Virus record (IMG/VR): IMGVR_UViG_3300025141_008585
Location: 1-25,335 of that record
Length of the DNA stretch: 25,335 bases
Strand: one strand, 5' to 3'
Origin: a virus
This document shows, piece after piece, positions 4,733 through 18,711 of the stretch. The stretch's first letter is position 1. Each line of letters starts with the position of its first letter. Under the pieces are notes generated by a model. The model was not told the origin of the DNA. It ran no database searches and saw only the letters and a program-made list of their open reading frames with translations. A program made the position numbers and the translations under genes.

Positions 4733-6080
4733 TTTAGCAGATTTTGGGCATACATTTCAAATAAAGATATTATCATCTTTAATGGCAGATACCAATTTCA
4801 TTGCACAAATTTATGATATATTTGATGAAAGTCATTTTGATAATGATAGTCTAAAATGGATAGCAAAAGAATGTAAGTTGTATTATGATGAATATAAACA
4901 ACCAATAACATTAGATGTATTCAAAGTAAAGGTAAGTGAAGTCCATAATGATATTCTTAAAGCAACCATCATTGAAACACTTAAAGAGGTAGTTAGATAT
5001 TTAGAAGCACCAGATTTAGAATTTATTAAAGACCAAGCACTTAATTTCTTTAAGAACCAAACATTGAAAAATGCTATTATTGAAAGTGTTGAGATACTTG
5101 AAAACAAAGGTGATTTTGATACGATAAAACAATTAGTTGATAATGCTTTACGAGCAGGAGCTGAGAGAAATATTGGACACGAATACATTGATGATATAGA
5201 GGCACGATATTCAGAGATGGCTCGTGAAACAGTTGAAACTCCATGGGATGTGTTGAATGATTTAACACAGGGTGGTTTAGCTGCTGGAGAACTTGGAGTG
5301 ATAGTTGCACCCGCAGGTATTGGTAAAACTTGGATACTGTGTGCATTAGGAGCCGGTTCAATGAAACGGGGTTCAAATGTTATTCATTATACATTAGAAT
5401 TAAATGAAGCATATGTAGGATTAAGATACGATAGTGTATTTACAGGGATAGCTAATCAGAACTTAAAGTATCATAAAGATGAGGTGAAACAAAAGATTGA
5501 AAATGTAGAAGGTGAACTTATAGTTAAATACTTTCCAACAAAGACAGCATCAGTAAATACAATATCAGCTCATCTACAGAAATTACGAATGATGGGAAAA
5601 GATTTTAATATGGTTGTAGTTGATTATGCTGACATTCTTAAAGATACAGGATTTGCAAAAGAGGTTAGACACGCTCTTGGTAATATCTATGAAGATTTAA
5701 GAGGTTTAGCAGGTGAGTTCGGTATTCCAGTTTGGACAGCATCACAAGCAAATCGTTCAGCATTAGATGAAGATGTGATTGAAGCACAAAAGGTTGCTGA
5801 GAGTTATCAAAAGATTATGACTGCTGACTTCGTTGTTTCATTAAGTAGAAAAGTAGAAGATAAGATTGGTAATACAGGAAGATTTCATATTATTAAAAAT
5901 AGATTTGGACCTGATGGGTTAACTTATCCAGCGAAGATAAACACAAACACAGGTGCTGTTGAGATATATGAGGCTACAAGTGTTGGTGGAAAAGAACAAC
6001 AACAGAAGATAGATAATAGAGATAACCTTATGAAGAAAATGTTATCAAGTAGATATGACGATTTAATGGGAGAAGAATAA
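4722..6080 (+). CDS. 41: DnaB/gp41-type replicative helicase
   Basis: This 452-aa protein has a helical N-terminal domain (about 1-150) and a RecA-type motor domain. Walker A is APAGIGKTW at 196-204 and Walker B MVVVDYADIL at 297-306. YTLELNEA at 223-230 and the late ASQANRS segment suit DnaB motifs. It should be a hexameric helicase travelling 5'-3' on the lagging strand. No primase domain is fused and no primase gene appears nearby. I accept the TTG start at 4722, which overlaps rnh, because the N-terminal residues NLADFGHTFQIKILSSL look like the usual start of this family and the next Met is 20 residues in. The ribosome site is weak (AAGGA about 10 bases upstream), so translation may depend on coupling. 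Confidence 0.88.
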   Translation: MTNNLADFGHTFQIKILSSLMADTNFIAQIYDIFDESHFDNDSLKWIAKECKLYYDEYKQPITLDVFKVKVSEVHNDILKATIIETLKEVVRYLEAPDLEFIKDQALNFFKNQTLKNAIIESVEILENKGDFDTIKQLVDNALRAGAERNIGHEYIDDIEARYSEMARETVETPWDVLNDLTQGGLAAGELGVIVAPAGIGKTWILCALGAGSMKRGSNVIHYTLELNEAYVGLRYDSVFTGIANQNLKYHKDEVKQKIENVEGELIVKYFPTKTASVNTISAHLQKLRMMGKDFNMVVVDYADILKDTGFAKEVRHALGNIYEDLRGLAGEFGIPVWTASQANRSALDEDVIEAQKVAESYQKIMTADFVVSLSRKVEDKIGNTGRFHIIKNRFGPDGLTYPAKINTNTGAVEIYEATSVGGKEQQQKIDNRDNLMKKMLSSRYDDLMGEE

Positions 6081-6163
6081 TGTTATATGGATATATAGAA
6101 ATACCAGAAGATTATTGGGTAAGTTCACATAATGTGGAATACATTATAGTTGAAAGTCAGTAA
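6080..6163 (+). CDS. Microprotein of 27 aa between helicase and Mom-like genes
   Basis: The ATG overlaps the helicase stop (TAATG). GGAG at 6069-6072 is 7 bases upstream, a better ribosome site than those of the two flanking TTG-start genes. The product is short and acidic/aromatic (starts MLYGYIEIPEDYW) with no recognised domain. Its stop lies 14 bases inside the following Mom-like gene. It may be a real microprotein or a leader that delivers ribosomes to the TTG start at 6150. Without comparative data either is possible. Confidence 0.4.
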   Translation: MLYGYIEIPEDYWVSSHNVEYIIVESQ

Positions 6164-6800
6164 TTTTACAATAGCACCAGTTCAACGGATGGCTATTCAG
6201 TCATTCGTTGAAAAGTGGCACTATTCACATTCAACAAATGGAGTTCAACAAACTCAATGTTTTGCTCTATATGATGATGGTGAAATTCCACGATTGATTG
6301 GAGCTATGATTTATGCATTACCATCAATGAAAGCAACAGCAGCTAGATACAATCCAGATAATCCATTGGGGTGTTGGGAGTTACGAAGATTGTGTTGTAT
6401 TGATGATACACCAACAAATACAGAGAGTTTTTTTATTGGACAAACATTGAGGTGGATTAAGAAAAACACAGATATTGAGGTGATAGTTTCCTATGCAGAC
6501 TTAGAGCAGGGTCATGCGGGTGTAATTTACAAAGCCTCGAACTTTATCTACTTGGGCCAGAGTGGTGGTGGTAGAGTTCTTATGGTAGATGGTAAAAAAT
6601 ATCATGCCCGCTCTCTCAATCAAAAAGAGAAACCATATGGTAGAGAATTAAAGAGAAGATGGGAAAACAAAGAAGGTCACGATTGGTGGGATTCGGAAGA
6701 AGATAATATGTATTTCGTTGATACAAAACCAAAGAATATTTATGTGTATTATCTAAATAAAAAAGTAAAGAAGAAATTATTGAAGTTACATAATGGATAA
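6150..6800 (+). CDS. Mom-like (GNAT-fold) DNA-modification protein, paralog 1
   Basis: This 216-aa protein has the pattern I associate with phage Mu Mom-like proteins, a GNAT-related family in which Mom converts adenine in DNA to a carbamoylmethyl derivative that blocks restriction. Visible markers are WHYSH around H24-Y25, ELRRLC at 77-82, NTESF at 90-94, and SYADLEQGHAGVIYKASNF at 114-132. The same landmarks occur in the proteins at 6793 and 17950. Its insert after residue 135 and its C-terminal half differ from theirs. The TTG start at 6150 keeps the first strand before WHYSH; the next Met is residue 14. Translation is probably coupled to the 27-aa frame. The exact substrate and added group are unknown. 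Confidence 0.72.
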   Translation: MKVSNFTIAPVQRMAIQSFVEKWHYSHSTNGVQQTQCFALYDDGEIPRLIGAMIYALPSMKATAARYNPDNPLGCWELRRLCCIDDTPTNTESFFIGQTLRWIKKNTDIEVIVSYADLEQGHAGVIYKASNFIYLGQSGGGRVLMVDGKKYHARSLNQKEKPYGRELKRRWENKEGHDWWDSEEDNMYFVDTKPKNIYVYYLNKKVKKKLLKLHNG

Positions 6801-7515
6801 ATATTGCGATACATCGAAGGTTGTAATTTTACCAACAACAAAAGAAGTTGTTTATAAGATGATTACAAAAAAACATTATGCTAAAAAATGGACTGCTTCA
6901 ACTAACATATATGGAGTATATTGGGATGAAGGTGATTCACCATTTTTTGATGATAGAAAATTGAAATTGATAGGTGCTGTTTTATACGGGCATCCATCTG
7001 GTTTTAGAGTAGTAAAATCCGTATCAGAAGATTTAGAAATAGGCGAAGTGTTAGAATTAAAACGACTATGGATTGCTGATGGGTATGGTAAAAATATAGA
7101 ATCGTTTGTAGTATCGAAAACATTAAAAATGTTAAGGAAAGATGATTCAAATGTTAAGGTTATTATTTCATTTGCTGACCCAGTTCAGAACCATCAAGGA
7201 ACTATTTACCAAGCAACCAATTGGATTTATCAGGGAAGAAAAGTAAGTCGTGGAGATTTTTATGAATATAAATATCCAAATACCGATGTGTGGTTATCAG
7301 ATAGAGCAATCGGAGCACAACTTGGAAGTAACGCACTTGATAATGTATTAAAGAAAATACCTGATATGGAATATAGAGTTAAAATGAGAAAACATAGATA
7401 TTTATATTTCCTATGTAATAAACAAGAGAAAAAGAAACTTATGAAAAGTTTAAAACATCCAATCAAACCATATGGATTTACCTGTGATTGTGAAGGAATG
7501 TGTGAGTGTGAATAA
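6793..7515 (+). CDS. Mom-like (GNAT-fold) DNA-modification protein, paralog 2
   Basis: This 240-aa protein shares the landmarks of its neighbour: KKHYAKKW (H28-Y29), IGAVLYGHPSG, ELKRLW at 88-93, NIESF at 101-105, and SFADP followed by H134-x-G-x-IYQATNWIYQG. It is closer to the paralog at 17950 than to the one at 6150, sharing the YGKN-x-ES stretch, ATNWIYQG, and a C-terminal KHRYLY-x-LC...HP-x-KPY segment. It ends in an added cysteine/acidic tail, CDCEGMCECE, absent from the other two, which could bind metal. The ATG overlaps the end of paralog 1 by 8 bases. DNA base modification is inferred from the family; it has no visible methyltransferase motif. Confidence 0.72.
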   Translation: MDKYCDTSKVVILPTTKEVVYKMITKKHYAKKWTASTNIYGVYWDEGDSPFFDDRKLKLIGAVLYGHPSGFRVVKSVSEDLEIGEVLELKRLWIADGYGKNIESFVVSKTLKMLRKDDSNVKVIISFADPVQNHQGTIYQATNWIYQGRKVSRGDFYEYKYPNTDVWLSDRAIGAQLGSNALDNVLKKIPDMEYRVKMRKHRYLYFLCNKQEKKKLMKSLKHPIKPYGFTCDCEGMCECE

Positions 7516-7537
7516 AAGTAAGAATAAAGAAATAATT

Positions 7538-7555
7538 TGTTATATTTATAGATAC
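7538..7555. promoter_or_regulatory. AT-rich element upstream of nrdJ, site C
   Basis: TGTTATATTTATAGATAC shares 14 of 18 positions with site B at 20345, including the central TATATTTATA and the ending ATAC. The minus strand reads TATAAATA across the centre. It lies in the 85-base gap before nrdJ and is a weaker palindrome than sites A and B. It may be a promoter or protein-binding site. No cobalamin riboswitch fits in this gap. Confidence 0.4.
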
Positions 7556-7600
7556 CTCAGCGGGTAATATAAATCACAGAACAAACAGGAGTTATATGCT

Positions 7601-9610
7601 ATGGATTATAAAAAATTCAGTTTATCAGACAATTTCATAGACGGATATAAAAGAAAAAAACCACCATTTGGTTTCAATGGATTGGGTCATCTTGTGTATA
7701 TGAGAACATATTCACGACTTAAAGATGATGGTTCAAATGAACAATGGTGGGAAACAGTTAAGCGTGTTGTAGAGGGAACTTACAACATGCAAAAGAAACA
7801 CATTGAGAGATATGATTTAGGGTGGAATGCGTGGCAAGCACAACGGTCAGCACAAGAAATGTATGACCGAATTTTTAATATGAAATTCTTGCCTCCTGGA
7901 CGTGGACTGTGGGCGATGGGAACATCAATCACAGAAGAAAAAGGATTATATGCCGCCCTTAATAATTGTGCATTCGTATCAACACAAAATCTGAAAGAAG
8001 ATTTATCTAAACCATTTACATTTTTAATGGACGCTTCGATGGTTGGTGTTGGTGTGGGATTTGACACAAAAGGTGCAGAATCATTTGTTATAAGAGGACC
8101 AAAAACTGATAGAGGTATAGAAACATATGTAGTACCGGATACTCGTGAAGGTTGGGTTGAAGCATTACGAAGATTATTAGATAGTTATTTTCTTGGAATA
8201 ACACCAGTTGATTTTGATTATTCAAAGATACGAGACGCTGGCGAACCAATCAAGGGATTTGGTGGAGTGTCAAGCGGACACGAACCACTTAAAGAAGTTT
8301 TGAAGCTGATTAGAGATACTTTAGATAAAAATATAGGAGAACCAATATCTATAACAACAATTGTAGATATTATGAATTTGATTGGTAAGTGTGTTGTAGC
8401 AGGTAATGTTAGACGAACTGCTGAAATTGTATTTGGTGATTCAACATCTGATGAGTATATCAATTTAAAGAATTATAAAAAGAATCCACATAGAGAAACA
8501 TATGGTTGGACATCAAATAATTCAATCTTTGCTGAATTAGGTATGGATTATACAGATGTATCCGAAAGAATAAATGATAATGGTGAACCTGGTTTCGCAT
8601 GGTTGGATAATATGAGAGAATATTCTCGTATGAGAAATGGTAAGGATAATAAAGACCATAGAGTTGCTGGTGGTAATCCTTGTCTTGAACAATCATTGGA
8701 ATCATATGAGTTGTGTTGTTTAGTTGAAACATTTCCAAACAATCATAAAGATTTAGATGATTATTTAAAAACTTTAAAATATGCTTATTTATATGCAAAA
8801 ACGGTTACATTAGGAAAAACTCATTGGTCTGAAACAAACAGAGTGATGTTGAGAAATAGAAGAATAGGAACATCAGTTAGTGGTGTAGCACAATTCATTA
8901 CAGAAAAAGGGTTACATCAATTAAAAGAATGGTTAGAAGTGGGTTATGATTCAATTCAAGATTATGATAAAATGTATTCAGATTGGTTAGCCGTTCCTCG
9001 TAGTATAAAAACTACATCAGTAAAACCAAGTGGAACTGTATCTTTATTAGCAGGTTCAACACCAGGATTACACTATCCAGAATCACGATTTTATATCAGA
9101 AGAATTAGGTTATCAATCAGTTCACCACTAATTAAACCATTACAAAAAGCAGGTTACAATATAGAACCAGCTTTCGGTAGTGAAAATTCAACAGTAGTTG
9201 TAGAAGTTCCAGTTGATGTGGGTGAGGGTGTACGAACAATCAATGATGTATCAATGTGGGAACAAGTGAGTTTAGCAGCATTTATGCAAAAGTATTGGGC
9301 TGACAATCAAGTAAGTTGTACAGTTACATTTGATCCTGAAACAGAAGGACATCAGATATCATCAGCACTAAACTATTTTCAATATCAGATGAAAGGTGTT
9401 TCATTTTTACCTAAAATGGAATTTGGTGCATACAAACAAATGCCTTACGAAGAGATTACCGAAAAGAAATATAATAAAATGGTTAGTGAATTGTCGTTCT
9501 TATCATTCAGACAAGTAAAAGGTAATGAAGCAGAAGTAGAAAAGTTCTGTAACAATGATACTTGTGAGATTGATTTGGAAGCAATTAAAGAAACACAAGA
9601 AGTAAACTAG
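7601..9610 (+). CDS. nrdJ: Adenosylcobalamin-dependent (class II) ribonucleotide reductase, monomeric type
   Basis: The enzyme reduces ribonucleotides to deoxyribonucleotides using a radical generated from coenzyme B12. The 669-aa sequence resembles the monomeric triphosphate reductase of Lactobacillus leichmannii. It has PPGRGLW at 98-104, C123 in ALNNCAF (redox pair), NPCLEQSLE with the thiyl cysteine C361 and E363, ELCCLVE with the second redox cysteine at 372/373, VKPSGTVSLLAGSTPG as the phosphate-binding loop, and a C-terminal C650-x4-C655 pair that would shuttle electrons from thioredoxin. AGGAG at 7587-7591 is 9 bases before the ATG. An out-of-frame ATG at 7596 opens only a 14-codon frame. 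B12 must come from the host. Confidence 0.9.
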   Translation: MDYKKFSLSDNFIDGYKRKKPPFGFNGLGHLVYMRTYSRLKDDGSNEQWWETVKRVVEGTYNMQKKHIERYDLGWNAWQAQRSAQEMYDRIFNMKFLPPGRGLWAMGTSITEEKGLYAALNNCAFVSTQNLKEDLSKPFTFLMDASMVGVGVGFDTKGAESFVIRGPKTDRGIETYVVPDTREGWVEALRRLLDSYFLGITPVDFDYSKIRDAGEPIKGFGGVSSGHEPLKEVLKLIRDTLDKNIGEPISITTIVDIMNLIGKCVVAGNVRRTAEIVFGDSTSDEYINLKNYKKNPHRETYGWTSNNSIFAELGMDYTDVSERINDNGEPGFAWLDNMREYSRMRNGKDNKDHRVAGGNPCLEQSLESYELCCLVETFPNNHKDLDDYLKTLKYAYLYAKTVTLGKTHWSETNRVMLRNRRIGTSVSGVAQFITEKGLHQLKEWLEVGYDSIQDYDKMYSDWLAVPRSIKTTSVKPSGTVSLLAGSTPGLHYPESRFYIRRIRLSISSPLIKPLQKAGYNIEPAFGSENSTVVVEVPVDVGEGVRTINDVSMWEQVSLAAFMQKYWADNQVSCTVTFDPETEGHQISSALNYFQYQMKGVSFLPKMEFGAYKQMPYEEITEKKYNKMVSELSFLSFRQVKGNEAEVEKFCNNDTCEIDLEAIKETQEVN

Positions 9611-9620
9611 GAGAAATATA

Positions 9621-10007
9621 ATGGGTAAACAAGTTAAAAAGCACGGATATAGTTGTAAATTAGTTAGAGTAGTTGATGGTGATACAGCAGATGCTATGAT
9701 TGATTTAGGATTTAATGTTTGGGTTAAAGAAAGAATCAGATTCTATGGTGTAGACACTTGGGAATCAAGAACAAGAAATCTTGAAGAAAAGAAAAAAGGT
9801 TTAGCTGCTAAAGCTTATGTTAAAGACCTACTTGAAAATTCAGATGAAGGTAAGTTTTCAATCATATCACACGGTAAAGGTAAGTATGGTAGAGTTCTTG
9901 GTGAACTATTTGTAAAAGGTCACGAATCTTCGGTAAATGAATTATTGAAAGAAAATGGTCACGCGTATGAATATCATGGTGAAAAGAAAAAAACCTTTAA
10001 AAGTTAA
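9621..10007 (+). CDS. Staphylococcal-nuclease-like (SNase/TNase) protein
   Basis: This 128-aa protein has the OB-fold nuclease pattern: VVDGDTADAMID near 17-28 and RIRFYGVDTWESR near 38-50 supply the calcium-binding aspartates, one catalytic arginine and the glutamate general base; KGKYGRVLGEL holds the second arginine. The key residues of the family therefore appear intact. It would cleave DNA or RNA in a calcium-dependent way. No signal peptide is visible, so it should act in the cytoplasm, perhaps on host nucleic acid or in DNA repair. AGGAG lies 11 bases after the nrdJ coding end region. Its stop overlaps the start of the CysM-like gene. Confidence 0.85.
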   Translation: MGKQVKKHGYSCKLVRVVDGDTADAMIDLGFNVWVKERIRFYGVDTWESRTRNLEEKKKGLAAKAYVKDLLENSDEGKFSIISHGKGKYGRVLGELFVKGHESSVNELLKENGHAYEYHGEKKKTFKS

Positions 10008-10876
10008 TGGAAGTCGGAAATACACCATTAATAAAATTATCAGATAGGTTATATGCTAAATATGAGGCAGTAAATCCTGGTGGTTCTATAAAAGATAGAC
10101 CTGTTAAATACATTCTTGATTCATATGAAAAAGATGGATTACTTAAAAAGGGTGATACCATTATAGAAGCCACAAGTGGTAATACAGGTATATCATTAGC
10201 TATGATGTGTGCTGAACGAGGATACAAATGTGTAATTGTTATGCCGTCAGATATGTCAGTAGAACGAAAGAAGATGATGAAGTTCTTTGGAGCTGAATTA
10301 GTTGAAGTTGATGAAGGTGATTTCGATGGAGCTATTGAAACAAAAGAAATGATAGCTGAAGAACAAGGATATAAAACATTAAATCAATTTAGTAATGAAT
10401 TGAATATAGAATGTCATAGAGAAACAACATGTAAAGAAATATTATTTGACACTATGTTGGAAGATTATGATTCACAGATATCAGCCTTTGTTGCTGGAAC
10501 TGGAACAGGTGGAACTTTAATGGGTGTTCAACAAGGATTTAAATCTCATTCTATTAAGGCTAAAATTGTTGCAGTAGAACCTGCCGAATCTCCTGTTATG
10601 AGTGGTGGGAAAAAAGGACTTCATGGTATTCAAGGTATTGGAGATGGATCCAAATTTTTAGTTAATTTGGATTTGGTAGATAATATTATACCTATTTCTA
10701 CAGAAGATGCTAAAGAAAGAAGTAGAAGGTTGGCTAGAGAAAATGGTTTATTTGTTGGTGTATCAGCTGGAGCTAATGTACTAGCATCTGAACGATGGAT
10801 AGAAAAGAATAACCCAGATGGAATTGTAGTAACAATTCTATGTGACAGAGGTGAGAGGTATTTTAGCGTATTATGA
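10007..10876 (+). CDS. cysM: CysM-like PLP-dependent cysteine synthase
   Basis: This fold-type II PLP enzyme has NPGGSIKDRP with the Schiff-base lysine K29, substrate loop TSGNTG at 56-61, phosphate-cradle GTGTGGT at 164-170, and a late LCDRGERYFS. The aspartate there resembles CysM (CDRGDRYLS) more than CysK. Cysteine synthases replace the acetyl group of O-acetylserine with sulfide or thiosulfate; related enzymes use other nucleophiles to make, for example, diaminopropionate. At 289 aa it is slightly short but no motif is missing. The ATG overlaps the nuclease stop, and the end overlaps the thioesterase by 4 bases. The actual nucleophile and product are uncertain. Confidence 0.85.
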   Translation: MEVGNTPLIKLSDRLYAKYEAVNPGGSIKDRPVKYILDSYEKDGLLKKGDTIIEATSGNTGISLAMMCAERGYKCVIVMPSDMSVERKKMMKFFGAELVEVDEGDFDGAIETKEMIAEEQGYKTLNQFSNELNIECHRETTCKEILFDTMLEDYDSQISAFVAGTGTGGTLMGVQQGFKSHSIKAKIVAVEPAESPVMSGGKKGLHGIQGIGDGSKFLVNLDLVDNIIPISTEDAKERSRRLARENGLFVGVSAGANVLASERWIEKNNPDGIVVTILCDRGERYFSVL

Positions 10877-11235
10877 AATTTTTAACAAGAAAATTAATTA
10901 CACCAGCAGATTTAAATCCAAGAGGAACATTACATGGAGGTCAATTACTTAAATGGATTGATGAAGAAGGTGGTATTCATGCAGCATTGGAATTAGAAAC
11001 TGGATTGATTGTAACTAAATATATATCAGAAATAGATTTTAAGTTTCCTGTATTGGAAGGTGATGTAGTGGAGATAGGAATGCAGACAATAGAAATAGGT
11101 AATACATCTTGTACATTAGCCTGTGATGTTAGAAGTTTACAAGCTGATAGAGTTGTATGTTCAATAGATAAAATGGTTTATATTAGAGTAAACAAATATG
11201 GTTTACCAAAGAAACATGGGGGAATGAATGAATAA
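10873..11235 (+). CDS. Hotdog-fold acyl-CoA thioesterase (YciA-like)
   Basis: This 120-aa protein carries the YciA/BACH-type signature NPRGTLHGGQLLKWIDEEGG, with the conserved aspartate at D30 after the HGG turn, followed by strands typical of a hotdog domain. Family members hydrolyse acyl-CoA thioesters to free acid and CoA in the cytoplasm, usually as oligomers. It starts in the ATGA overlap with the CysM-like gene and overlaps the nucleotidyltransferase by 8 bases, so the three are very likely one translational unit. It may instead recycle an acyl-CoA intermediate produced by the phage; the substrate cannot be read from sequence. Confidence 0.8.
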   Translation: MKFLTRKLITPADLNPRGTLHGGQLLKWIDEEGGIHAALELETGLIVTKYISEIDFKFPVLEGDVVEIGMQTIEIGNTSCTLACDVRSLQADRVVCSIDKMVYIRVNKYGLPKKHGGMNE

Positions 11236-11746
11236 TTTTAATATTGATTGGAGAAGATCAATAATAGTATTGAGTGGTGGATTTGACCCAGTTCATAAAG
11301 GTCATTTAAGAATGTTTAGAGAAGCAAGTAATTTAGGTCACCAAGTAATCATAGGATTAAATTCGGATGAGTGGTTGACAAGAAAAAAAGGTAAACCATT
11401 TATGCAATTTGAAGAAAGAAAAGAAATCATTGAAGGATTCAAATATGTAAATCAAGTATTACCATTTGATGATAACGATGATACTGCTAGTGATTTAATT
11501 CGTAGAGTTCATACCATTTATACAAGTGAAGAATATGAATATGAAGCTTCTGATTTATTACATCAAGGATTTGTGGATTATTATAAAATATATTTTGCAA
11601 ATGGTGGTGATAGAACTACAAAGAATGTTCCAGAAATGTCTGTATGTAAAGAACTTGATGTAACAATGTTATGGGGAATAGGTGGTGGTAAAGTACAATC
11701 ATCATCTTGGTTAATTAATGGAGGAACAGAGGAGGAATTAGTATAA
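11228..11746 (+). CDS. HxGH-type nucleotidyltransferase (RfaE-C/TagD-like)
   Basis: The nucleotide-binding signature GGFDPVHKGHLRMFREA (about 17-33) has the HxGH motif. LNSDEWLTRKKGKPF with FEERKEII is like the heptose-1-phosphate adenylyltransferase half of RfaE and the TagD family. FANGGDRTTKNVPE and GGGKVQSSSWLI supply the usual later phosphate-binding motifs. Such enzymes transfer AMP or CMP to a phosphate (sugar, glycerol or pantetheine). At 172 aa it is of ordinary length with a small insert near 95-115. Neighbours suggest a small-molecule pathway, while the downstream glycosyltransferases would fit an activated-sugar role. The substrate is not determined. Confidence 0.8.
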   Translation: MNNFNIDWRRSIIVLSGGFDPVHKGHLRMFREASNLGHQVIIGLNSDEWLTRKKGKPFMQFEERKEIIEGFKYVNQVLPFDDNDDTASDLIRRVHTIYTSEEYEYEASDLLHQGFVDYYKIYFANGGDRTTKNVPEMSVCKELDVTMLWGIGGGKVQSSSWLINGGTEEELV

Positions 11747-11889
11747 TGGGATTCAGACGAACAGTAGGATTTACTGGAGATGATTTACCAATTAGAATTT
11801 ACTGGCATCACAGAAATCACGATTGGTCATCTTCAGATTTAAGAGAACGGGTATTTGAATCAGAAAAATATAGATGTGGGAGAAGATAA
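11746..11889 (+). CDS. Small basic protein of 47 aa
   Basis: The ATG at 11746 overlaps the last base of the nucleotidyltransferase stop. GGAGG at 11731-11735 is 10 bases upstream. The product is rich in arginine, histidine and tryptophan (IYWHHRNHDWSSSDLRER) and has no domain I recognise. The frame ends three bases before the polymerase promoter begins, which fits the end of an operon. Its function is unknown; nucleic-acid binding is possible from composition only. Confidence 0.55.
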   Translation: MGFRRTVGFTGDDLPIRIYWHHRNHDWSSSDLRERVFESEKYRCGRR

Positions 11890-11891
11890 CA

Positions 11892-11923
11892 CTTGTTTCA
11901 TAACATAAAAAGGTTGTATATTA
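11892..11923 (+). promoter_or_regulatory. Sigma70-like promoter for DNA polymerase (shared layout, copy 2)
   Basis: CTTGTTTCAT starts at 11892 and TATATT occupies 11917-11922, with the same 18-base spacing and spacer A-run as copies 1 and 3. The polymerase ATG begins at 11928. A start site about 7 bases after the -10 box would fall on or next to that ATG, and there is no ribosome site between them. Confidence 0.6.
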
Positions 11924-11927
11924 AGTA

Positions 11928-14444
11928 ATGGCTTACCAAAACATATATGTAAAAAGAACAAAGACAAATAGTGAAGTACATATTTGGGATGATCGGACCG
12001 GATATTCAAAGTTTCAATATAAACCATACGCTTACTTAAAATCTCAAACTGGTCAACATCGTTCATTATATGGTGATAAGTTAAAGAAAGTAAACTATTG
12101 GACTGGTGAAGATATACAAAAAGGTAATGTGTTTGAATCAGATGTTCCAATTGAAACTCGTGTATTGGTAGATATGTATCCAGATTCAGAAGAAGTATCA
12201 ACTGGTCATCGTGAGGTATATTTTGATATTGAGGTTGAAGTCACACAAGGATTTCCAGACCCTAAAGAGGCTCGTAATAAGATAACAGCGATTGCATTAT
12301 ACGATAAAACGACAGACAAATATCATTGTTTTATTTTAGGTGATGTGAAGAATACAGATGTGATTGAAGCATTTGAAAGTGAAGAAGAATTACTACAAAG
12401 ATTCTATCAGAAATATCTTGAAATTCAACCGACTATATTAAGTGGTTGGAATATTGATGGTTTTGATATTCCTTATTTATATAACAGAACTCGTAGAGTG
12501 ATGGGTGAATCATTTGCAAATTCATTATCACCGATTGGTGAGATATTTTATTCTGAACATAAAAAACAATATAAGATTGCTGGTGTGTCGTGTTTGGATT
12601 ATATGAAATTATATAGATTATTTACATACACACAACAATCATCATATAGATTAGATTATATAGGACAACTTGAAGTTGGTATTGGTAAAGTTGAATATGA
12701 AGGAACACTTAACGATTTGTATGAAACTGACATCAACAAGTTTATTGAATATAACTTAAACGATGTTAAGATTGTTAAAGCACTTGACGAAAAAATAAAA
12801 TTTATTGATTTGGCTCGTGGTATATCTCATGTTGGACATACACCATATGAAGATGTATATTATTCGAGTAGATATTTAGAAGGTGCTATTCTTACTTATT
12901 TAAAGAGTAATGATATTATAGCACCAAATAAGGATATAGATGCTCGTAAGAAAATGAATGATAATACCGAAAAGTTTAGTGGTGCTTATGTCAAAGATCC
13001 AGTTCCGGGTAGATATGAATGGGTGTATGATTTAGATTTAACATCAATGTATCCATCAATCATCATGACTTTGAATATATCACCTGAAATGAAGATTGGT
13101 AAATTACTTGGTTGGGATAGTAGAGAGTTCATCAGAGGAACACAAAAAACATATACACTTGAAAAAAATGGTAAAGTTCAAGGAACTCTTAATGATGAAG
13201 AACTAAAAAAATTATTTGAGAAAAAGAATATATCTGTATCATCAAATGGCGTGTTATATAGAAACGATAAAAAAGGACTTGTTCCAACACTATTAAGAAA
13301 ATGGTTTGATGAAAGAGTTGAATACAAACGATTGATGAAGAAGTTTGGTGGTGAGGGAGATACAGAACAACAGGGATATTTTAAACGAAGACAACATGTA
13401 CAAAAGATTATCCTTAATTCACTTTATGGTGTGTTGGGATTACCAGTATTTAGATTTTATGATATTGATAATGCTGAAGCAACAACTGTAACTGGTCAGG
13501 AATTGATTAAGTTTACACAGAAGATGGCAAATTACTTTTATAATAAAGAACTTGATGATAAAGAAGATTATGTAATTTATACAGATACGGATAGTATTTT
13601 TTGTAGTGCTGTTCCATTGGTAGAACATAGAAATCCAGATGCTGATACATCTGATGATGAATATATGACAAAAGAGATTTTATCAATTACGGAAGAAGTT
13701 CAAGATTTTATTAATGGTAGTTATGATATGTTTGCTAAAAGATTTTTGAATGTAAAAGATGAACATAGATTTGATATAAAACAAGAAGTAATATCTCGTT
13801 CAGCATTTTGGGTTACAAAGAAAAGATATGGTCAATGGATTATAAATGATGATGGAGTTCCTTGTGATAAGTTAGATGTTAAGGGGTTAGATATTGTCAG
13901 AAGTAGTTTCCCAGTATCATTTAGAGAATTGATGACACGAATTCTTAAAGGTATATTAAACAATACCAATAAAGAAGAAATTGATGATATGATTTTGACA
14001 TTTAAGAAAAGTTTAAAAGAGCAATCATTGGACGATATAGCTTTACCAACTGGTGTAAAAGGTATTCAAAAGTTTACTGATAGATCTCGTGGTAAGTTTA
14101 ACAATAAAACTATCTTTACAAATGTCAGAAAAGGAGCACCTGTACATGTAAAGGCGTCTATCACATATAATGATTTACTTAAATATTATGGATTAAAATC
14201 AATTGAACCAATCAGAAATTCTGATAAAATTAAATGGGTATATCTTAAAGAAAATCCATTACAGATTAAACAATTAGCATTTAAAGGATATGATGATCCG
14301 AAAGAAATTATTGATTATATTGAACAATATATTGATAGAGATAAGTTGTTCAAGAAAGCCCTACAAAAGAAACTTGATATGTTTTATGAAAGTTTAGATT
14401 GGGTATTGGTTGATAAGCAAGATACATTAGATAGATTTTTTTAG
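11928..14444 (+). CDS. 43: Family B DNA polymerase (T4 gp43-like)
   Basis: This is the replicative polymerase with proofreading. The exonuclease motifs are YFDIEVE (D100, E102), SGWNIDGFDIPYL at 172-184, and YNLNDVKIV with D279. The polymerase motifs are DLDLTSMYPSII at 368-379, KIILNSLYG at 493-501 and YTDTDS at 551-556. At 838 aa it is slightly shorter than T4 gp43 (about 898). The C-terminus QDTLDRFF resembles the clamp-binding tail of T4 gp43, fitting the gp45-like clamp encoded downstream. No intein interrupts the motifs. The promoter's -10 box lies just 5 bases before the ATG, so the mRNA is probably leaderless. Confidence 0.95.
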   Translation: MAYQNIYVKRTKTNSEVHIWDDRTGYSKFQYKPYAYLKSQTGQHRSLYGDKLKKVNYWTGEDIQKGNVFESDVPIETRVLVDMYPDSEEVSTGHREVYFDIEVEVTQGFPDPKEARNKITAIALYDKTTDKYHCFILGDVKNTDVIEAFESEEELLQRFYQKYLEIQPTILSGWNIDGFDIPYLYNRTRRVMGESFANSLSPIGEIFYSEHKKQYKIAGVSCLDYMKLYRLFTYTQQSSYRLDYIGQLEVGIGKVEYEGTLNDLYETDINKFIEYNLNDVKIVKALDEKIKFIDLARGISHVGHTPYEDVYYSSRYLEGAILTYLKSNDIIAPNKDIDARKKMNDNTEKFSGAYVKDPVPGRYEWVYDLDLTSMYPSIIMTLNISPEMKIGKLLGWDSREFIRGTQKTYTLEKNGKVQGTLNDEELKKLFEKKNISVSSNGVLYRNDKKGLVPTLLRKWFDERVEYKRLMKKFGGEGDTEQQGYFKRRQHVQKIILNSLYGVLGLPVFRFYDIDNAEATTVTGQELIKFTQKMANYFYNKELDDKEDYVIYTDTDSIFCSAVPLVEHRNPDADTSDDEYMTKEILSITEEVQDFINGSYDMFAKRFLNVKDEHRFDIKQEVISRSAFWVTKKRYGQWIINDDGVPCDKLDVKGLDIVRSSFPVSFRELMTRILKGILNNTNKEEIDDMILTFKKSLKEQSLDDIALPTGVKGIQKFTDRSRGKFNNKTIFTNVRKGAPVHVKASITYNDLLKYYGLKSIEPIRNSDKIKWVYLKENPLQIKQLAFKGYDDPKEIIDYIEQYIDRDKLFKKALQKKLDMFYESLDWVLVDKQDTLDRFF

Positions 14445-14450
14445 AAAAAG

Positions 14451-14482
14451 CTTGTATTATGTTACAAAATAGTTGTATATTA
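14451..14482 (+). promoter_or_regulatory. Sigma70-like promoter after polymerase (shared layout, copy 3)
   Basis: CTTGTATTAT starts at 14451 and TATATT is at 14476-14481, with the spacing of copies 1 and 2. The sequence just before it (TAGAAAAAGCTTGT) also matches copy 1, and in both cases the TAG is the stop of the preceding gene. The ATG at 14488 lies at the expected transcription start, so this mRNA is also probably leaderless. Confidence 0.6.
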
Positions 14483-14487
14483 TAAAA

Positions 14488-14664
14488 ATGGATAAGTGGT
14501 TTCATATTAAATTAAAAGAAACAGCAGATACTTATTTATCAAATTCAACCTTTTGGTTGGGTGGAAATAATAAAGAAGATATATTAAAAATCTTAAAGAT
14601 AAAACATAAAATAACAGAAAACGAAGTAGAGTGGATTCGTGAAGAAATTCCACCATTTGTATAG
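14488..14664 (+). CDS. Small protein of 58 aa, probably from a leaderless mRNA
   Basis: I place the start at ATG 14488 rather than the in-frame TTG at 14473, because that TTG lies at the -10 box of the promoter and would not be transcribed from it. The product (begins MDKWFHIKLKETADTYLS) is mixed in charge, with no recognised domain. The stop at 14662-14664 adjoins the ribosome site of the clamp gene, so it may also carry ribosomes toward the clamp. A role in clamp or polymerase function is suggested only by its position between the two. Confidence 0.6.
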   Translation: MDKWFHIKLKETADTYLSNSTFWLGGNNKEDILKILKIKHKITENEVEWIREEIPPFV

Positions 14665-14673
14665 GAGAATAAG

Positions 14674-15399
14674 ATGCAAAAAACAAAGTTAGATAAGTTC
14701 ATTCAAAAATATAATTTGGGTGGAAATGTAAATAGTGTAAAATGGACATCAGATGGTAATTCATTGAAAACATCATTTGTAACACCAGATAAATCATTAT
14801 TAGGAACAGTTAAAGTAGATAAGTTCACATTTGAAAATGCTGAACTTGGTGTATATCAAACAGACCAACTAAAAAGTTTGATTGGTGTATTGGGTGATGA
14901 TGTATCATTGACTTTATCAAGGTTCGGTGATAAAGCTGTATCATTAAATGTAAAGAATGGTTCAGTATCAATTGATTATGTGTTAAGTGATTTATCAGTT
15001 ATAGCAGACCCACCAGCACTTAAACGATTACCAGAGTTCGGAACACAGATTAAACTTGATACAAAGTTTATCAACACTTTCATCAAAGGTAAAAGTGCTT
15101 TAAGTGATGTTGATACATTTACAGTAATGAATAACAATAAAACAGGTGAAGTGGATATTGTTATTGGTTATGCTTCAACAAATACAAATAGAGTAAATAT
15201 TCCAGTTGAAACAATCACAAGTAATTTAACAGAAGCAATTTCATTTAATGCTAATCTTTTTAAAGAGGTGTTAACTGCAAATCGTGAATGTACATCAGCA
15301 ACTCTTGAAGTTTCAAACGAAGGTTTAGCTCGTGTTAATTTCAAAGTAGATGATTTCGATAGTGAGTATTATGTAGTTTCAATTCAAGATGTAGATTAA
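14674..15399 (+). CDS. 45: Sliding clamp (T4 gp45-like)
   Basis: This 241-aa protein fits the trimeric gp45 clamp in length and in its repeated strand-rich pattern: KFTFENAELGVYQTDQLKSLIGVL in the first half, with FNANLFKEVLTANREC in the second as the equivalent helix region. The whole is acidic, as expected for a ring surrounding DNA. It would tether the polymerase and, in T4, also activates late transcription. AGGAG at 14663-14667 is 6 bases before the ATG and overlaps the upstream stop. Synteny with the polymerase and clamp loader genes makes the call firm even though clamps have few invariant residues. Confidence 0.85.
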   Translation: MQKTKLDKFIQKYNLGGNVNSVKWTSDGNSLKTSFVTPDKSLLGTVKVDKFTFENAELGVYQTDQLKSLIGVLGDDVSLTLSRFGDKAVSLNVKNGSVSIDYVLSDLSVIADPPALKRLPEFGTQIKLDTKFINTFIKGKSALSDVDTFTVMNNNKTGEVDIVIGYASTNTNRVNIPVETITSNLTEAISFNANLFKEVLTANRECTSATLEVSNEGLARVNFKVDDFDSEYYVVSIQDVD

Positions 15400-15400
15400 T

Positions 15401-15538
15401 ATGAAAAAAGAATGGAAATATACTTTAATAGAGGAAAGTGGTACTGTCGATATTTATTATGCTAGTACTTTTTTTCACATGATTATTAAGGTATTGGGGG
15501 GTAAAATTCGTAGGAGCTTAGCTAATTGGAAACGATAA
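15401..15538 (+). CDS. Small basic protein of 45 aa
   Basis: An ATG two bases after the clamp stop opens a frame that ends 13 bases inside the clamp loader gene. The product begins MKKEWKYTLIEESG and ends in a basic segment (GGKIRRSLANWKR). I recognise no family. No convincing ribosome site precedes it. Evidence is the neat fit between two known genes; it may alternatively be a spacer that carries the AGGAG of the clamp loader. Confidence 0.5.
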   Translation: MKKEWKYTLIEESGTVDIYYASTFFHMIIKVLGGKIRRSLANWKR

Positions 15539-16440
15539 ATCATTCACTTTGGGTTGAGAAATGGCGACCAACGACATTAGATACATATATTGGTAACGAA
15601 CATCTGAAAAACAAGGTAAAGATTTATCTTGAAACTGAAGATGTTCCACACTTGTTATTGTATGGTGTTGCAGGAACTGGTAAAACAACATTGGCTAAAA
15701 TCATTACAAAGAATATTGATTGTGATCATCTTTACATAAACGCATCAGATGAAAACAATGTAGATAATGTTAGAACAAAGATAAAGAACTTTGCTTCGAC
15801 AATAGGATTTAGGGAATTAAAAGTAGTCATTCTTGATGAGGCGGATTTCCTAACACCAAACGCTCAAGCAGCTCTTCGTAATCTTATGGAAACATTTTCA
15901 AAACATTGTCGGTTCATACTGACTTGTAATTATGTAGAGAGAATAATAGACCCCATTCAATCAAGATGTCAACCATACAAAATCATTCCACCATCAAGAA
16001 AAGAAGTAGCAATTCATTTGAGAAATATTCTCGATGAAGAAGATGTTATGTATAAACTTGATGACTTGGCGATGATTGTGAATGCTGGTTATCCTGATAT
16101 TCGTAGAGTTATCAATTCAGCGCAAAGACAAATCGTTGATGGTAAATTGAAAATAGATGTAGGTTCAGTAATTCAGAATGATTATAAAATACAGTTGTTA
16201 GGTATGTTATCAGGTGGAGAACAACCCAAAGTAATCAGAAAGTTTCTCGCTGATAATTCAGTTAACGATTATTCAGAATTGTATAAGTTACTTTATGATA
16301 ACCTTGAAGAATATTCGAATGGTAAAGATGCTGAATGTATATTAGCAATTGCAGAAGGACAATATCAAGAGGTAAATGTTGTAGATAAAGAAATAACATT
16401 TATGGCGACAATAATTAAATTATTAAGGGTAATTAAATGA
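15526..16440 (+). CDS. 44: Clamp loader large subunit (T4 gp44-like, AAA+)
   Basis: This 304-aa protein is an RFC/DnaX-type AAA+ ATPase that opens the sliding clamp and places it on primer-template DNA. It begins with the RFC-box-like LWVEKWRPTTLDTYIG. Walker A GVAGTGKT is at 47-54, Walker B VVILDEAD at 100-107, sensor 1 ILTCNY near 131-136, and the arginine-finger SRC motif at 146-148. PDIRRVIN near 195-202 looks like sensor 2. I accept the TTG at 15526 because AGGAG at 15512-15516 is 9 bases upstream and the N-terminal motif starts at once. Its end overlaps the next gene by 4 bases. Confidence 0.92.
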   Translation: METINHSLWVEKWRPTTLDTYIGNEHLKNKVKIYLETEDVPHLLLYGVAGTGKTTLAKIITKNIDCDHLYINASDENNVDNVRTKIKNFASTIGFRELKVVILDEADFLTPNAQAALRNLMETFSKHCRFILTCNYVERIIDPIQSRCQPYKIIPPSRKEVAIHLRNILDEEDVMYKLDDLAMIVNAGYPDIRRVINSAQRQIVDGKLKIDVGSVIQNDYKIQLLGMLSGGEQPKVIRKFLADNSVNDYSELYKLLYDNLEEYSNGKDAECILAIAEGQYQEVNVVDKEITFMATIIKLLRVIK

Positions 16441-16631
16441 AAGCTTTTAGAGTAGTGAACAAGTCAATACCATTTATGGATAATTTTGGCGAAAGAAAAT
16501 ATAATGAAATAATAGTTACATTATATCAACCACCATATGAAGATGAAAATGTTTTGAATAAAACAGGTTGGAAACAAAAAGATGTAACAATAACAGATAT
16601 AACAATGGAGATACGAGATGGCAACGGTTAA
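16437..16631 (+). CDS. Hypothetical protein of 64 aa
   Basis: This short frame starts in an ATGA overlap with the clamp loader gene and overlaps the next gene by 14 bases. The product (MKAFRVVNKSIPFMDNFGE start) looks like a small beta-rich protein with a tyrosine/proline segment LYQPPYEDE. No metal site or known motif is visible. Its place inside the clamp loader operon supports a real gene; I do not recognise its function. Confidence 0.6.
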   Translation: MKAFRVVNKSIPFMDNFGERKYNEIIVTLYQPPYEDENVLNKTGWKQKDVTITDITMEIRDGNG

Positions 16632-16863
16632 AGGTAATTTCGGAGGCGGAACACACCAGACAGAAATAGATTTTTCAAAAACAAATGAAATAAAATGTGA
16701 AGTATGTATGAATGATACATTTGAACAAACTTTATTATTAAGAAAATTATCAGCATTGGTTTCACCGACGGGTGAAGAAACCATAATTCCTATGGCTGTA
16801 TTTGCTTGTAAGAAATGTGGTCATGTTAATAGTGATTTCAGACAAAGTGAATTAGATATATAA
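16618..16863 (+). CDS. Small zinc-binding type protein of 81 aa
   Basis: Two Cys-x2-Cys pairs, CEVC near residues 27-30 and CKKC near 63-66, are separated by about 32 residues. This is the spacing of a zinc ribbon. The end (CGHVNSDFRQSELDI) is like many phage zinc-ribbon hypotheticals. GGAG about 8 bases before the ATG supports the start. It sits between clamp loader genes together with another zinc protein, so a role in replication or transcription is possible but not shown. Confidence 0.65.
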   Translation: MATVKGNFGGGTHQTEIDFSKTNEIKCEVCMNDTFEQTLLLRKLSALVSPTGEETIIPMAVFACKKCGHVNSDFRQSELDI

Positions 16864-17079
16864 ATGCCAATATACACCTTTAAATGTCCAAAATGTAATA
16901 AAGTAAAAGAGGTATTACAGAAGATGGATGATTCACCACCTGTATGTGTAGATTGTAGCATAGTTCTACCGAGATATACAATTGAAATGGAACGGCAGTT
17001 TACAGGTAGTGGCGGTTTCAAACTTAAAGGTGGTGGTTGGTTTAAAGATGGTTACACAAAATTGGAGAAACCTAAATGA
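16864..17079 (+). CDS. FmdB-type zinc ribbon protein
   Basis: The 71-aa protein opens with PIYTFKCPKCNKVKEVLQ and has a second CVDC pair. This is the layout of FmdB-family zinc ribbons (first strand, CPxC, then the second CxxC about 20 residues later). A glycine-rich segment, FTGSGGFKLKGGGWFKDGY, follows and is also typical of that family. FmdB was named as a putative regulator, but the molecular role is poorly known. The ATG follows the upstream stop directly, and the end overlaps the clamp loader small subunit by 4 bases. Confidence 0.8.
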   Translation: MPIYTFKCPKCNKVKEVLQKMDDSPPVCVDCSIVLPRYTIEMERQFTGSGGFKLKGGGWFKDGYTKLEKPK

Positions 17080-17495
17080 CGATTATAGATTGGATGAACC
17101 AGTTATTGGTTCACAAGAAATCGTGGAACACATTTTCAGAAACAGACCAAAAGAAGTTTAGTCCATTTATCATAAACAGATGGTTATCAATGGATGATGA
17201 TTTTATAGAAATAGTAGATTTTTTTCAACAATATTCAATTGGATTATTAGAACCAAGAGAAGTGTATAAATGGTATTGCGATGTATTACCAAAAGGTAAA
17301 CGATATAATAAATACATCAAAGGTCGTAAAGATAAGAAATACGATGAATTATTAGTTTCTACAATGGTTAAACATTTTGAATGTAGTAACAAACAAGCAT
17401 CTGAATATCTTGGATTGATAGATAAACAAGAATTAAAAGAAATACTAAAAATGTATGGTACAGATGAGAAGAAGATAAAGAAGGTATTAAAATGA
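17076..17495 (+). CDS. 62: Clamp loader small subunit (T4 gp62-like)
   Basis: This 139-aa protein shows features of the gp62 subunits of T4-like marine phages: an N-terminal helix (IIDWMNQLLVHKKS), then FSPFIINRWLSMD near 28-40, a central PKGKRYNKYIKGRKDKK segment, and a C-terminal part with YLGLIDKQELKEILKMYG. With gp44 it forms the loader complex. It is shorter than T4 gp62 (187 aa) but close to the marine-phage forms as I know them. Two zinc-protein genes and a 64-aa gene separate it from gene 44, whereas the two are adjacent in T4. Confidence 0.8.
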   Translation: MTIIDWMNQLLVHKKSWNTFSETDQKKFSPFIINRWLSMDDDFIEIVDFFQQYSIGLLEPREVYKWYCDVLPKGKRYNKYIKGRKDKKYDELLVSTMVKHFECSNKQASEYLGLIDKQELKEILKMYGTDEKKIKKVLK

Positions 17496-17962
17496 GTGAA
17501 AAAGTAATAAAAGATAAACCAACAAAAGAAGAATATAAACTCGAAGATTTTGGTGAAATCATAGCAAGACACGATGATGGAACACCATTTATGGCTTTCA
17601 AAGATAATAAAAATCATCAGACAGTTAATGTGGTAACATCAATGGAACAAGAATGGCCAGAGATGACAAAAGAGTTTAAAAGATTACAACGAGAACAGTA
17701 TGAATTATTTTGTCGTAAGCAACATGATTATGGTCCAGGAAATATATCAGTTGGAACACAGTTACATACAGAAGAAGATATTAAGTTATCACTCACAGGA
17801 TTATGGTTCAGAATTAATGATAAGATACAAAGAGTTAAAACTTTATTGATGGGAAATAAGAAAGCAGCTGTAAACGATGAGCCAATCGAAGATGCTTTTC
17901 TTGATATGTCTAACTATGGTATTATGGCAACAATCGTAAAGAATGGAAAATGGGGAAAATAG
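17492..17962 (+). CDS. Nmad1 (DUF1599)-like protein
   Basis: The C-terminal two thirds matches the pattern of DUF1599, also called nucleotide modification associated domain 1: FCRKQHDYGPGNISVG near 76-91, LTGLWFRINDKIQRVKTLL near 100-118, and EPIEDAFLDMSNYGIMA near 130-146. The family was linked to DNA base modification through gene neighbourhoods in phages; its chemistry is not established as far as I know. The N-terminal 70 residues are not recognised. The gene starts in an ATGA overlap with gp62 and overlaps the third Mom-like gene by 13 bases, which strengthens the modification link. Confidence 0.75.
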   Translation: MSEKVIKDKPTKEEYKLEDFGEIIARHDDGTPFMAFKDNKNHQTVNVVTSMEQEWPEMTKEFKRLQREQYELFCRKQHDYGPGNISVGTQLHTEEDIKLSLTGLWFRINDKIQRVKTLLMGNKKAAVNDEPIEDAFLDMSNYGIMATIVKNGKWGK

Positions 17963-18711
17963 ATAAATCCAAAATAACAATTCGTGAAATACCGAAAAAG
18001 ATAGCCAAGAATATGATTGTAAAAAATCATTATAGCCACAAGTGGACATCTTGTAGATATGCACTTGGTATCTTTTATGAGACAGATAACGAACATCAGT
18101 TCTTTGATGAAACAGAAGAGAAATTAGCTGGTGTGGCTATCTATGGTTATCCTGTTGGTAGGAGTGCTCCTAAATCTATTTCACCTGAATTAAAAGAAGA
18201 AGAGGTTTTGGAGTTAACAAGGTTGTTTATATTTGATGAGTATGGAAAGAATACGGAAAGTGTGGTATTATCAAAAACATTCAACTGGTTAAAACAAAAT
18301 GCATCAGAGATAAAGGTGTTGGTTTCATATTCAGACCCAGAACAAGGTCATTTGGGAATTATCTATCAAGCAACAAATTGGATTTATCAAGGTAATAATA
18401 TTAGATTGATGCCAAATCATGCATTACGATTGACAGAAAGTGGTGATTGGATGCATTCTAGAAATGTAAATACTAAATATGGTTCGTGTAATCTCGAACA
18501 TTTGAAAAAGAAGATAGGTCATACATTTTGGAGAAAAGAAGAACCTGAAAAACATAGATATTTATATCTGTTGTGTGGGAAGAAGGATAAGAGAAAGATA
18601 ATGAATACTTTAATTCATCCACAAAAACCATATCCAAAAGACCCATATCAGTTTTACCCAGAAATACAAAAAATTGAAGTAGAAAATAATAAACAAGGAT
18701 TTTATGAATAG
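17950..18711 (+). CDS. Mom-like (GNAT-fold) DNA-modification protein, paralog 3
   Basis: This 253-aa protein repeats the landmarks of the two genes at 6150-7515: KNHYSHKW (H27-Y28), LAGVAIYGYPVG, ELTRLF at 88-93, NTES at 101-104, SYSDPEQGH at 126-134 and IIYQATNWIYQG. Its closest relative in the window is paralog 2; both share FFD, YGKN-x-ES and the C-terminal KHRYLY-x-LC segment. It lacks paralog 2's cysteine tail. Overlap with the Nmad1-like gene upstream and the nuclease downstream puts it in a tight operon. A DNA base, probably adenine by analogy with Mu Mom, is the likely target, but the group added cannot be told. Confidence 0.74.
   Translation: MGKIDKSKITIREIPKKIAKNMIVKNHYSHKWTSCRYALGIFYETDNEHQFFDETEEKLAGVAIYGYPVGRSAPKSISPELKEEEVLELTRLFIFDEYGKNTESVVLSKTFNWLKQNASEIKVLVSYSDPEQGHLGIIYQATNWIYQGNNIRLMPNHALRLTESGDWMHSRNVNTKYGSCNLEHLKKKIGHTFWRKEEPEKHRYLYLLCGKKDKRKIMNTLIHPQKPYPKDPYQFYPEIQKIEVENNKQGFYE

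Follow-up and report, generated by a model that had tools for sequence, protein, structure and literature searches.

Three Mom-family proteins of separate ancestry in the replication gene cluster of a phage genome fragment

Three stand-alone Mom proteins in two slots

The window analysed here is the whole 25,335 nt stretch, a 25 kb phage genome fragment that includes three genes for proteins of the Mom family, here named Mom A, Mom B and Mom C. Mom A (positions 6150–6800, 216 aa), a Mom/GNAT-fold DNA modification protein, and Mom B (6793–7515, 240 aa) are arranged in tandem in slot 1, between the genes for a DnaB-like replicative helicase (4722–6080; PF03796) and a B12-dependent (class II) ribonucleotide reductase (7601–9610; PF17975 and PF21995). 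Mom C (17950–18711, 253 aa) is found in slot 2, bounded on the left by the gene for a DUF1599 'Nucleotide modification associated domain 1' protein (17492–17962; PF07659, 33.8 bits against a cut-off of 25) and on the right by one for a PD-(D/E)XK exonuclease-like protein (18704–19579; PF12705, 67 bits). All of these genes are on the plus strand, and the reading frames of the three Moms are open throughout. The start of Mom B overlaps the end of Mom A by 8 bases, and Mom C overlaps both of its neighbours, the DUF1599 gene at its end and the nuclease gene at its start. The start codon of Mom A is TTG, which has been kept in orthologues found in the same slot.

A family B DNA polymerase gene (11928–14444, plus strand; PF00136) has its nearest isolate relative in Microcystis phage Mel-JY01 (48%, tblastn). 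As it is accompanied by genes for gp32 (PF08804), UvsX/RecA (PF00154), a 5' exonuclease and clamp loader A (PF16790), and by a sliding clamp position, the region is a T4-like replication cluster. Two genes for zinc-ribbon proteins (16618–16863 and 16864–17079), which returned a match to Zn_ribbon_8 or nothing specific, are upstream of Mom C, at a distance of two genes; at the level of annotation, no Com-like gene directly precedes Mom A or Mom C. Scans of the window for tRNA genes and Rfam families returned no matches, and no match to Mom C was found when bacterial genome contigs were scanned for a host.

The Mom profile PF25680, for which the curated cut-off is 27.1 bits, matched A, B and C over nearly its full length with scores of 135, 144 and 178 bits, respectively, and all three matched PHROG 1384, 'Mom-like DNA modification protein' (E 1e-46 to 1e-55). 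Searches with phmmer against the Mom of phage Mu (PDB 8bv8) gave E values of 5e-10 (A), 6e-9 (B) and 4e-10 (C), and a profile of B and C matched 8bv8 with an E value of 6e-25. The three proteins share only 30% (A/B), 31% (A/C) and 40% (B/C) identity. Five motifs (in A numbering, H-Y at 24–25, E-L-x-R at 77–80, N-x-E-S at 90–93, S-[YF]-[AS]-D at 114–117 and H-x-G-x-x-Y-x-A-[ST]-N at 122–131) are fully or almost fully conserved in an alignment in which Mu Mom and Moms from isolated phages are also represented. The 8bv8 entry is titled as the inactive mutant S124A, and the equivalent of S124 is the serine of N-x-E-S (S93 in A, S104 in B and S104 in C). This serine is invariant across the clade alignment, as are the H-Y, E-L-x-R, N, S and D/Y positions. 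A search with domain profiles found no methyltransferase or other additional domain, and each protein is a Mom without a fused partner. An earlier note, made from the sequence alone, had described three Mom-like proteins here with these shared motifs and no methyltransferase motif, and was right on each count, as well as in its coordinates; A, B and C are true members of the Mom family, with matches far beyond chance.

The same note had proposed structure prediction, alongside profile searches, against Mu Mom and GNAT proteins. AlphaFold models of Mom A (pLDDT 86) and Mom B (pLDDT 87) are closest in the PDB to 8bv8, with Z scores of 20.0 and 20.3, and the next matches are at 15.1 and 12.5, respectively. 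Protein and small-molecule acetyltransferases are among the lower-ranked matches. Ratios of dN/dS, computed at dS near 0.4–1.4, were 0.08–0.11 for Mom A (against four orthologues), 0.09 for Mom B (against contig L135) and 0.06–0.08 for Mom C (against close orthologues). All three genes are thus under purifying selection and, as the motif residues are also intact, this phage probably has more than one active modification enzyme.

Ancestry and turnover of the Mom genes

In a phylogenetic tree, A, B and C fall in different deep Mom clades, with B on a longer branch. AU tests rejected a clade made up of all three (p = 4e-193), of A and B (4e-60) and of B and C (3e-49), ruling out a recent triplication within the phage. 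The three are old paralogues or xenologues with separate ancestries. The clades differ in their loops and at clade-specific positions, two of them close to the conserved H-Y motif (B34/A30 and B37/A33) and one beside the tyrosine of the catalytic region (B140/A128).

Whole-contig searches of 78 related IMG/VR contigs, a non-random sample picked up via Mom queries, found two or more Mom matches over the cut-off in 54 and three or four in 11. The novelty that the earlier note had implied for a phage with three Moms is therefore not borne out. What stands of its interpretation is that three diverged Moms, with intact motifs and under purifying selection, are present in one phage replication region. 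Counts in the related contigs range from zero to four Moms, which come from about eight clades and occupy a few slots within a single replication gene cluster; the combination A+B+C was seen only in the window.

Two Moms of the same clade are almost never found together. Of the 82 contigs in which at least two full-length Moms were found, 81 contain no same-clade pair, and D+E pairs account for 44 of the 82. The sole exception, L020, has two Moms of one clade that are 50% identical. An in-match stop that had suggested a broken extra clade-A copy in L020 is the normal end of the open reading frame, and the copy appears intact. A supposed broken clade-A Mom in L129 is instead a DruA-like protein, and the tally was corrected for it. 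In a rough shuffle of the 13 distinct combinations (L020 excluded), 3.2 same-clade repeats were expected and none was seen (P 0.017), a value that is indicative only, as the contigs come from a Mom-query sample and are phylogenetically non-independent.

The contents of the two slots were compared on backbones that are 75–90% identical. Slot 1 contains A+B in the window, L044 and L136, A alone in L137–L139, an H-clade Mom in L160 and no Mom in L161. Slot 2 contains C in the window and L159 and no Mom in L160. Moms have been gained and lost slot by slot in these relatives. The adjacent PD-(D/E)XK gene was considered as a restriction partner of Mom C and rejected, as L160 retains the nuclease gene (84% identical) in a slot that has no Mom. 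The B clade is rare and, in the nine contigs where it occurs (window included), always adjoins a clade A or clade D Mom; clades A, C, D and E are each also found without B. In related contigs, genes for DruA-like proteins frequently overlap Mom genes. Profile–profile comparison of an alignment of DruA-like proteins with one of Moms gave no significant match (E about 0.1).

Comparison with the Moms of other phages

Phage Mu uses Mom to disguise its own DNA from bacterial restriction enzymes. In work by Karambelkar et al. from 2020, Mu Mom is said to bind iron and acetyl-CoA. Mu Mom shares its family (PF25680), the GNAT fold (in the A and B models), the motif residues including S124, and its size with A, B and C, from which it differs in sequence (about 22–24% identity). 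Mu has a single late mom gene with its own annotated Com regulator (NC_000929), whereas the three genes here lie among replication genes of early type.

The nearest isolate relative of both C (54%) and B (42%) is the Mom of Polaribacter phage P12002L, a 49 kb phage that differs in having one Mom and an adjoining DNA methyltransferase gene. The nearest isolate relatives of Mom A are in the Klebsiella RaK2 group, Enterococcus Efquatrovirus and Geobacillus PK3.6 (41–49%). The two phages checked, RaK2 and PMBT2, have one full Mom each, compared with three here; a 584 aa frame in RaK2 includes an additional weak Mom match.

An earlier report describes several Moms in one phage, and the window is not unique in this respect, nor did its Moms arise by recent triplication. 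The jumbo phage PA5oct resembles it in having several Mom-type enzymes, reported as five momylating enzymes and explained as a means of overcoming more than one restriction system (PMC7824862). Five Moms of the present family were not recovered from PA5oct with PF25680, which returned a single match, below the cut-off, in a 553 aa frame. The Mom domains of jumbo phages are typically fused to nuclease domains (PMC7824862), in contrast to the stand-alone Moms of the classic family in the window, and A, B and C show no such coupling to a nuclease of the restriction endonuclease fold. A functional analogy is offered by phages with several DNA methyltransferases, and by Bacillus phages with multi-specificity methyltransferases (PMC12707154), which combine several recognition specificities, with another enzyme family and another chemistry.

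Possible roles of the Mom set

We consider it fairly probable that A, B and C form a functional, non-redundant repertoire, with each enzyme acting on adenines in its own sequence context and the three together blocking more host restriction enzymes. The Moms appear to have entered the two slots one at a time and, as they lie among replication genes, would be produced while the genome is copied; the replication gene cluster that holds the slots is T4-like and conserved. By analogy with Mu Mom, each would add the Mom group to N6 of adenine, so that the expected base is the known adduct and not necessarily a new one, and the adenine context probably differs from enzyme to enzyme. The union of these contexts would then protect against more restriction enzymes than a single Mom, and the set may be analogous to that of a phage with several DNA methyltransferases, each with its own specificity. 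That co-occurring Moms almost always come from different clades speaks for different targets or functions rather than dosage, but could also reflect different timing of expression or different acceptors.

Alternatively, A, B and C might attach chemically different groups, or act stepwise on one base, giving more than one unusual base. This we regard as unlikely. The depth of the clades, their loop differences and the clade-specific residues listed above would fit it, as would the restriction of B to positions beside a clade A or D Mom, where a partner enzyme would be expected, and GNAT chemistries are varied, including methylcarbamoyl transfer (PMC8072286). However, every clade shares its core motif residues with the others and with Mu Mom, clades A, C, D and E occur without B, so that no single fixed pathway is seen, and the B clade is small, leaving the pairing to rest on few independent cases. 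A broader form, in which the Moms differ in both attached group and site, so that two or three different acyl-type modifications of adenine occur in the DNA of one virion, and in which the DruA-like neighbours of relatives belong to the same modification system, is distinctly unlikely. The position of B, always adjoining another Mom with a few bases of overlap, and its longer branch could instead indicate a non-catalytic partner or decoy subunit of its neighbour; with every invariant motif residue kept, an 8bv8-like fold (Z 20.3) and a dN/dS of 0.09, this is quite improbable for B, the likeliest candidate among the three.

The tandem of A and B and the frequency of gain and loss could suggest redundant copies, either duplicated recently for dosage or drifting as leftovers of horizontal transfer. 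As the tree and AU tests exclude recent duplication, and the intact motifs and dN/dS of 0.06–0.11 contradict drift, redundancy is very unlikely. It is just as improbable that these proteins act during replication on RNA, nucleotides or protein and not on DNA; GNAT folds do serve many acceptors, but comparisons of sequence, profile and fold all place the DNA-modifying Mu Mom first, well above other GNATs, and the genes sit among those for DNA replication.

To our knowledge, research on Mom has dealt almost exclusively with the single enzyme of phage Mu, and we know of no account of how a Mom selects its target sequence. With its two to four coexisting, diverged Moms of separate clades, the present lineage is a ready-made comparative set, with a shared chemistry core and differing recognition parts. 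The recurrent overlap of Mom genes with DruA-like genes may offer a first biochemical hint on DruA, a Druantia defence protein. If each Mom does mark different sites, this lineage would show a phage building broad protection from restriction out of Mom enzymes, and swapping parts between clades could reveal the residues responsible for recognition.

The three Mom proteins and their ancestry

The proteins A, B and C, encoded on the plus strand at 6150–6800, 6793–7515 and 17950–18711, had been described in the earlier note as Mom-like and as sharing a set of motifs, and both descriptions hold. They scored 135, 144 and 178 bits, respectively, against the Pfam Mom family (PF25680, cut-off 27.1), no other Pfam family was found in any of them, and all three matched PHROG 1384, 'Mom-like DNA modification protein', and, at the sequence level, the structure of phage Mu Mom (8bv8). 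Of these proteins, C comes nearest to the family profile. The structure models cover A and B (AlphaFold, mean pLDDT 86 and 87), and their best PDB match was 8bv8, with Z scores of 20.0 and 20.3, clearly ahead of the GNAT proteins that ranked second (15.1 and 12.5). We assign A, B and C to the Mom family without reservation.

The shared motifs (H-Y, E-L-x-R, N-x-E-S, S-x-x-D and G-x-x-Y-x-A) show no or almost no variation in alignments of clades A to F, which are deep groups in our Mom tree, and are also present in the Moms of Mu and isolate phages. The 8bv8 entry is titled 'phage Mu protein Mom inactive mutant S124A', and its chain reads N-S-E-A in the PDB alignment where the Mu genome encodes N-S-E-S; the counterpart of the mutated serine is S93 in A and S104 in both B and C. 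Against close orthologues, dN/dS was 0.08–0.11 for A, 0.09 for B and 0.06–0.08 for C. The intact core and these ratios indicate that all three are maintained as working proteins.

Mom A starts with TTG (position 6150), a start that is conserved in six contigs with the same slot, among them the related contigs L043, L135–L137 and L139. ATG is the start codon where an A-clade gene belongs to a different slot or group (L034, L140). As Mu mom starts with GUG (PMC6483171) and artificial expression of Mom has been described as toxic (PMC12707154), the weak TTG start may keep expression of Mom A low.

The Mom tree comprises 110 proteins, and its few long branches of uncertain position include none from the window. 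In it, A falls in a clade with the Moms of Klebsiella phage RaK2, Enterococcus phage PMBT2, Vibrio phage VnaP and Geobacillus phage PK3.6. B and C belong to another large group, which includes Polaribacter phage P12002L, and each forms a small clade of its own. Forced groupings of A+B+C (p 4e-193), A+B (p 4e-60) and B+C (p 3e-49) were all rejected. The tree and these rejections rule out a triplication within this phage as the source of A, B and C.

Mom turnover in the replication cluster

The window, an IMG/VR virus record of 25,335 bases, has a GC content of 31–32% and its main genes are all on the plus strand. Profile searches identified a T4-like replication cluster comprising a gp32-like single-strand binding protein, UvsX/RecA, a 5'-3' exonuclease, a DnaB-type helicase, a class II ribonucleotide reductase, a family B polymerase, clamp loader subunits and a PD-(D/E)XK exonuclease. 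Glycosyltransferase genes come after the cluster. Among isolates, the nearest polymerase is that of Microcystis phage Mel-JY01 (48%), whose 190 kb genome has the same local gene order but is without any Mom. Bacterial genome contigs scanned with Mom C gave no match and pointed to no host.

In contigs with the same gene order, Moms have been gained, lost or replaced at the same positions. Both A and B lie in the helicase/reductase gap of the window, of L044 and of L136; L137–L139, L118, L119, L123 and L133 have only A there, L160 has a Mom of the distant clade H, and L161 has no Mom. The gap between DUF1599 and PD-(D/E)XK holds C in the window, L007–L017 and L159, and in L160 it is empty, with the flanking genes 3 bases apart. 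In a more distant group of contigs, one Mom (clade F) lies between the clamp and clamp loader genes and another (clade A) precedes DUF1599, and a third group has D and E in tandem. Longer arrays are D-B-E in L046 and L047 and four tandem Moms (A, B, an unplaced divergent one and D) at L034:1810-4901, directly upstream of which lies an HNH endonuclease gene.

At least two Mom matches over the cut-off were present in 54 of 78 contigs searched whole, and three or four in 11; as these contigs were found via Mom queries, the counts are not a frequency in nature. By contrast, among 50,697 isolate records, tblastn queries with A, B and C found essentially one place per record (324 places in 324 records, 279 in 278 and 320 in 320).

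Other genes of the region were also noted. DUF1599, 'Nucleotide modification associated domain 1' (17492–17962), directly precedes Mom C, directly follows an A-clade Mom in L048, L053 and L140, and is retained in L160, whose slot is empty of Mom. Between the nuclease and polymerase genes, a cassette at 10007–11746 encodes a PLP-dependent cysteine synthase-like enzyme, a 4HBT thioesterase and a cytidylyltransferase-like protein; some relatives carry it and others do not, and no link to Mom was seen. The thioesterase (10873–11235) is 95–98% identical to proteins near Mom genes at L024:11703-12062 and L025:10925-11284. As these contigs otherwise have little in common with the window, this points to recent transfer of the gene.

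DruA-like genes near Mom genes

Of 156 loci, 51 have a gene with the DruA domain (PF14236), known from the defence system Druantia, no more than 10 kb from a Mom; some of these loci are near-copies of one another. In 16 cases, involving clades A, B, D, E and H, the two genes are at most 300 bases apart and usually overlap by 4–24 bases. Adjoining or overlapping examples are L026:984-2147, L026:3586-4674, L024:10720-11304, L025:9280-9987, L020:588-1787, L085:6481-7749, L096:11530, L154:2133-3359, L129:2660-3253 (minus strand) and L084:5882-6484. The window has no DruA-like gene. The L129 protein also matches the PHROG Mom (E 3e-6) and, below the cut-off, Pfam Mom, and DUF4338, the former name of the DruA domain, has been termed a GNAT domain by Burroughs, Iyer and colleagues (PMC10853773). 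Profile-profile comparison of DruA-like and Mom alignments was not significant, and a common origin within GNAT is therefore suggested rather than established. In Synechococcus phage DSL-LC03 (L169:921-2091), a gene annotated as a type II restriction endonuclease overlaps a Mom-like gene.

A probable division of labour among co-resident Moms

Full-length Moms were found in 135 contigs, 82 of which carry two or more. Two of the 82, L129 and L020, were initially listed as repeating a clade. The extra 'Mom' of L129 is the DruA-like protein, which had been miscounted, and the two Moms that L020 has from clade A are only 50% identical to each other. Co-resident Moms thus nearly always differ in clade. 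Shuffling the 13 distinct combinations gave 3.2 expected repeats and zero repeats in 1.7% of shuffles, figures that are indicative only, as L020 was omitted and the combinations are not independent. The near-absence of same-clade pairs argues against a dosage effect and for division of labour. In the clade alignment, some clade-specific residues lie beside the conserved H-Y and others follow the conserved G-x-x-Y, positions that would fit differing acceptor recognition. B was found only adjoining Moms of clades A and D, and it could have a partner or second-step role.

That a single phage may carry several Moms is, in principle, already known. For phage PA5oct, Iyer and colleagues described five momylating enzymes and proposed that having several of them helps against more than a single restriction system (PMC7824862). 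PF25680 gave a single match to PA5oct, below the cut-off, so its enzymes appear to be of a more distant Mom type. The Moms of that type are described as usually joined to nuclease domains (PMC7824862), whereas the Moms of the window's lineage are stand-alone and classic. What is new, relative to the open-access literature, is the exchange of stand-alone classic Moms of about eight clades between fixed positions within a single replication cluster. The Moms would probably be made together with the replication proteins and modify adenine in new phage DNA, each in its own short sequence context, so that three enzymes would cover more restriction sites than one.
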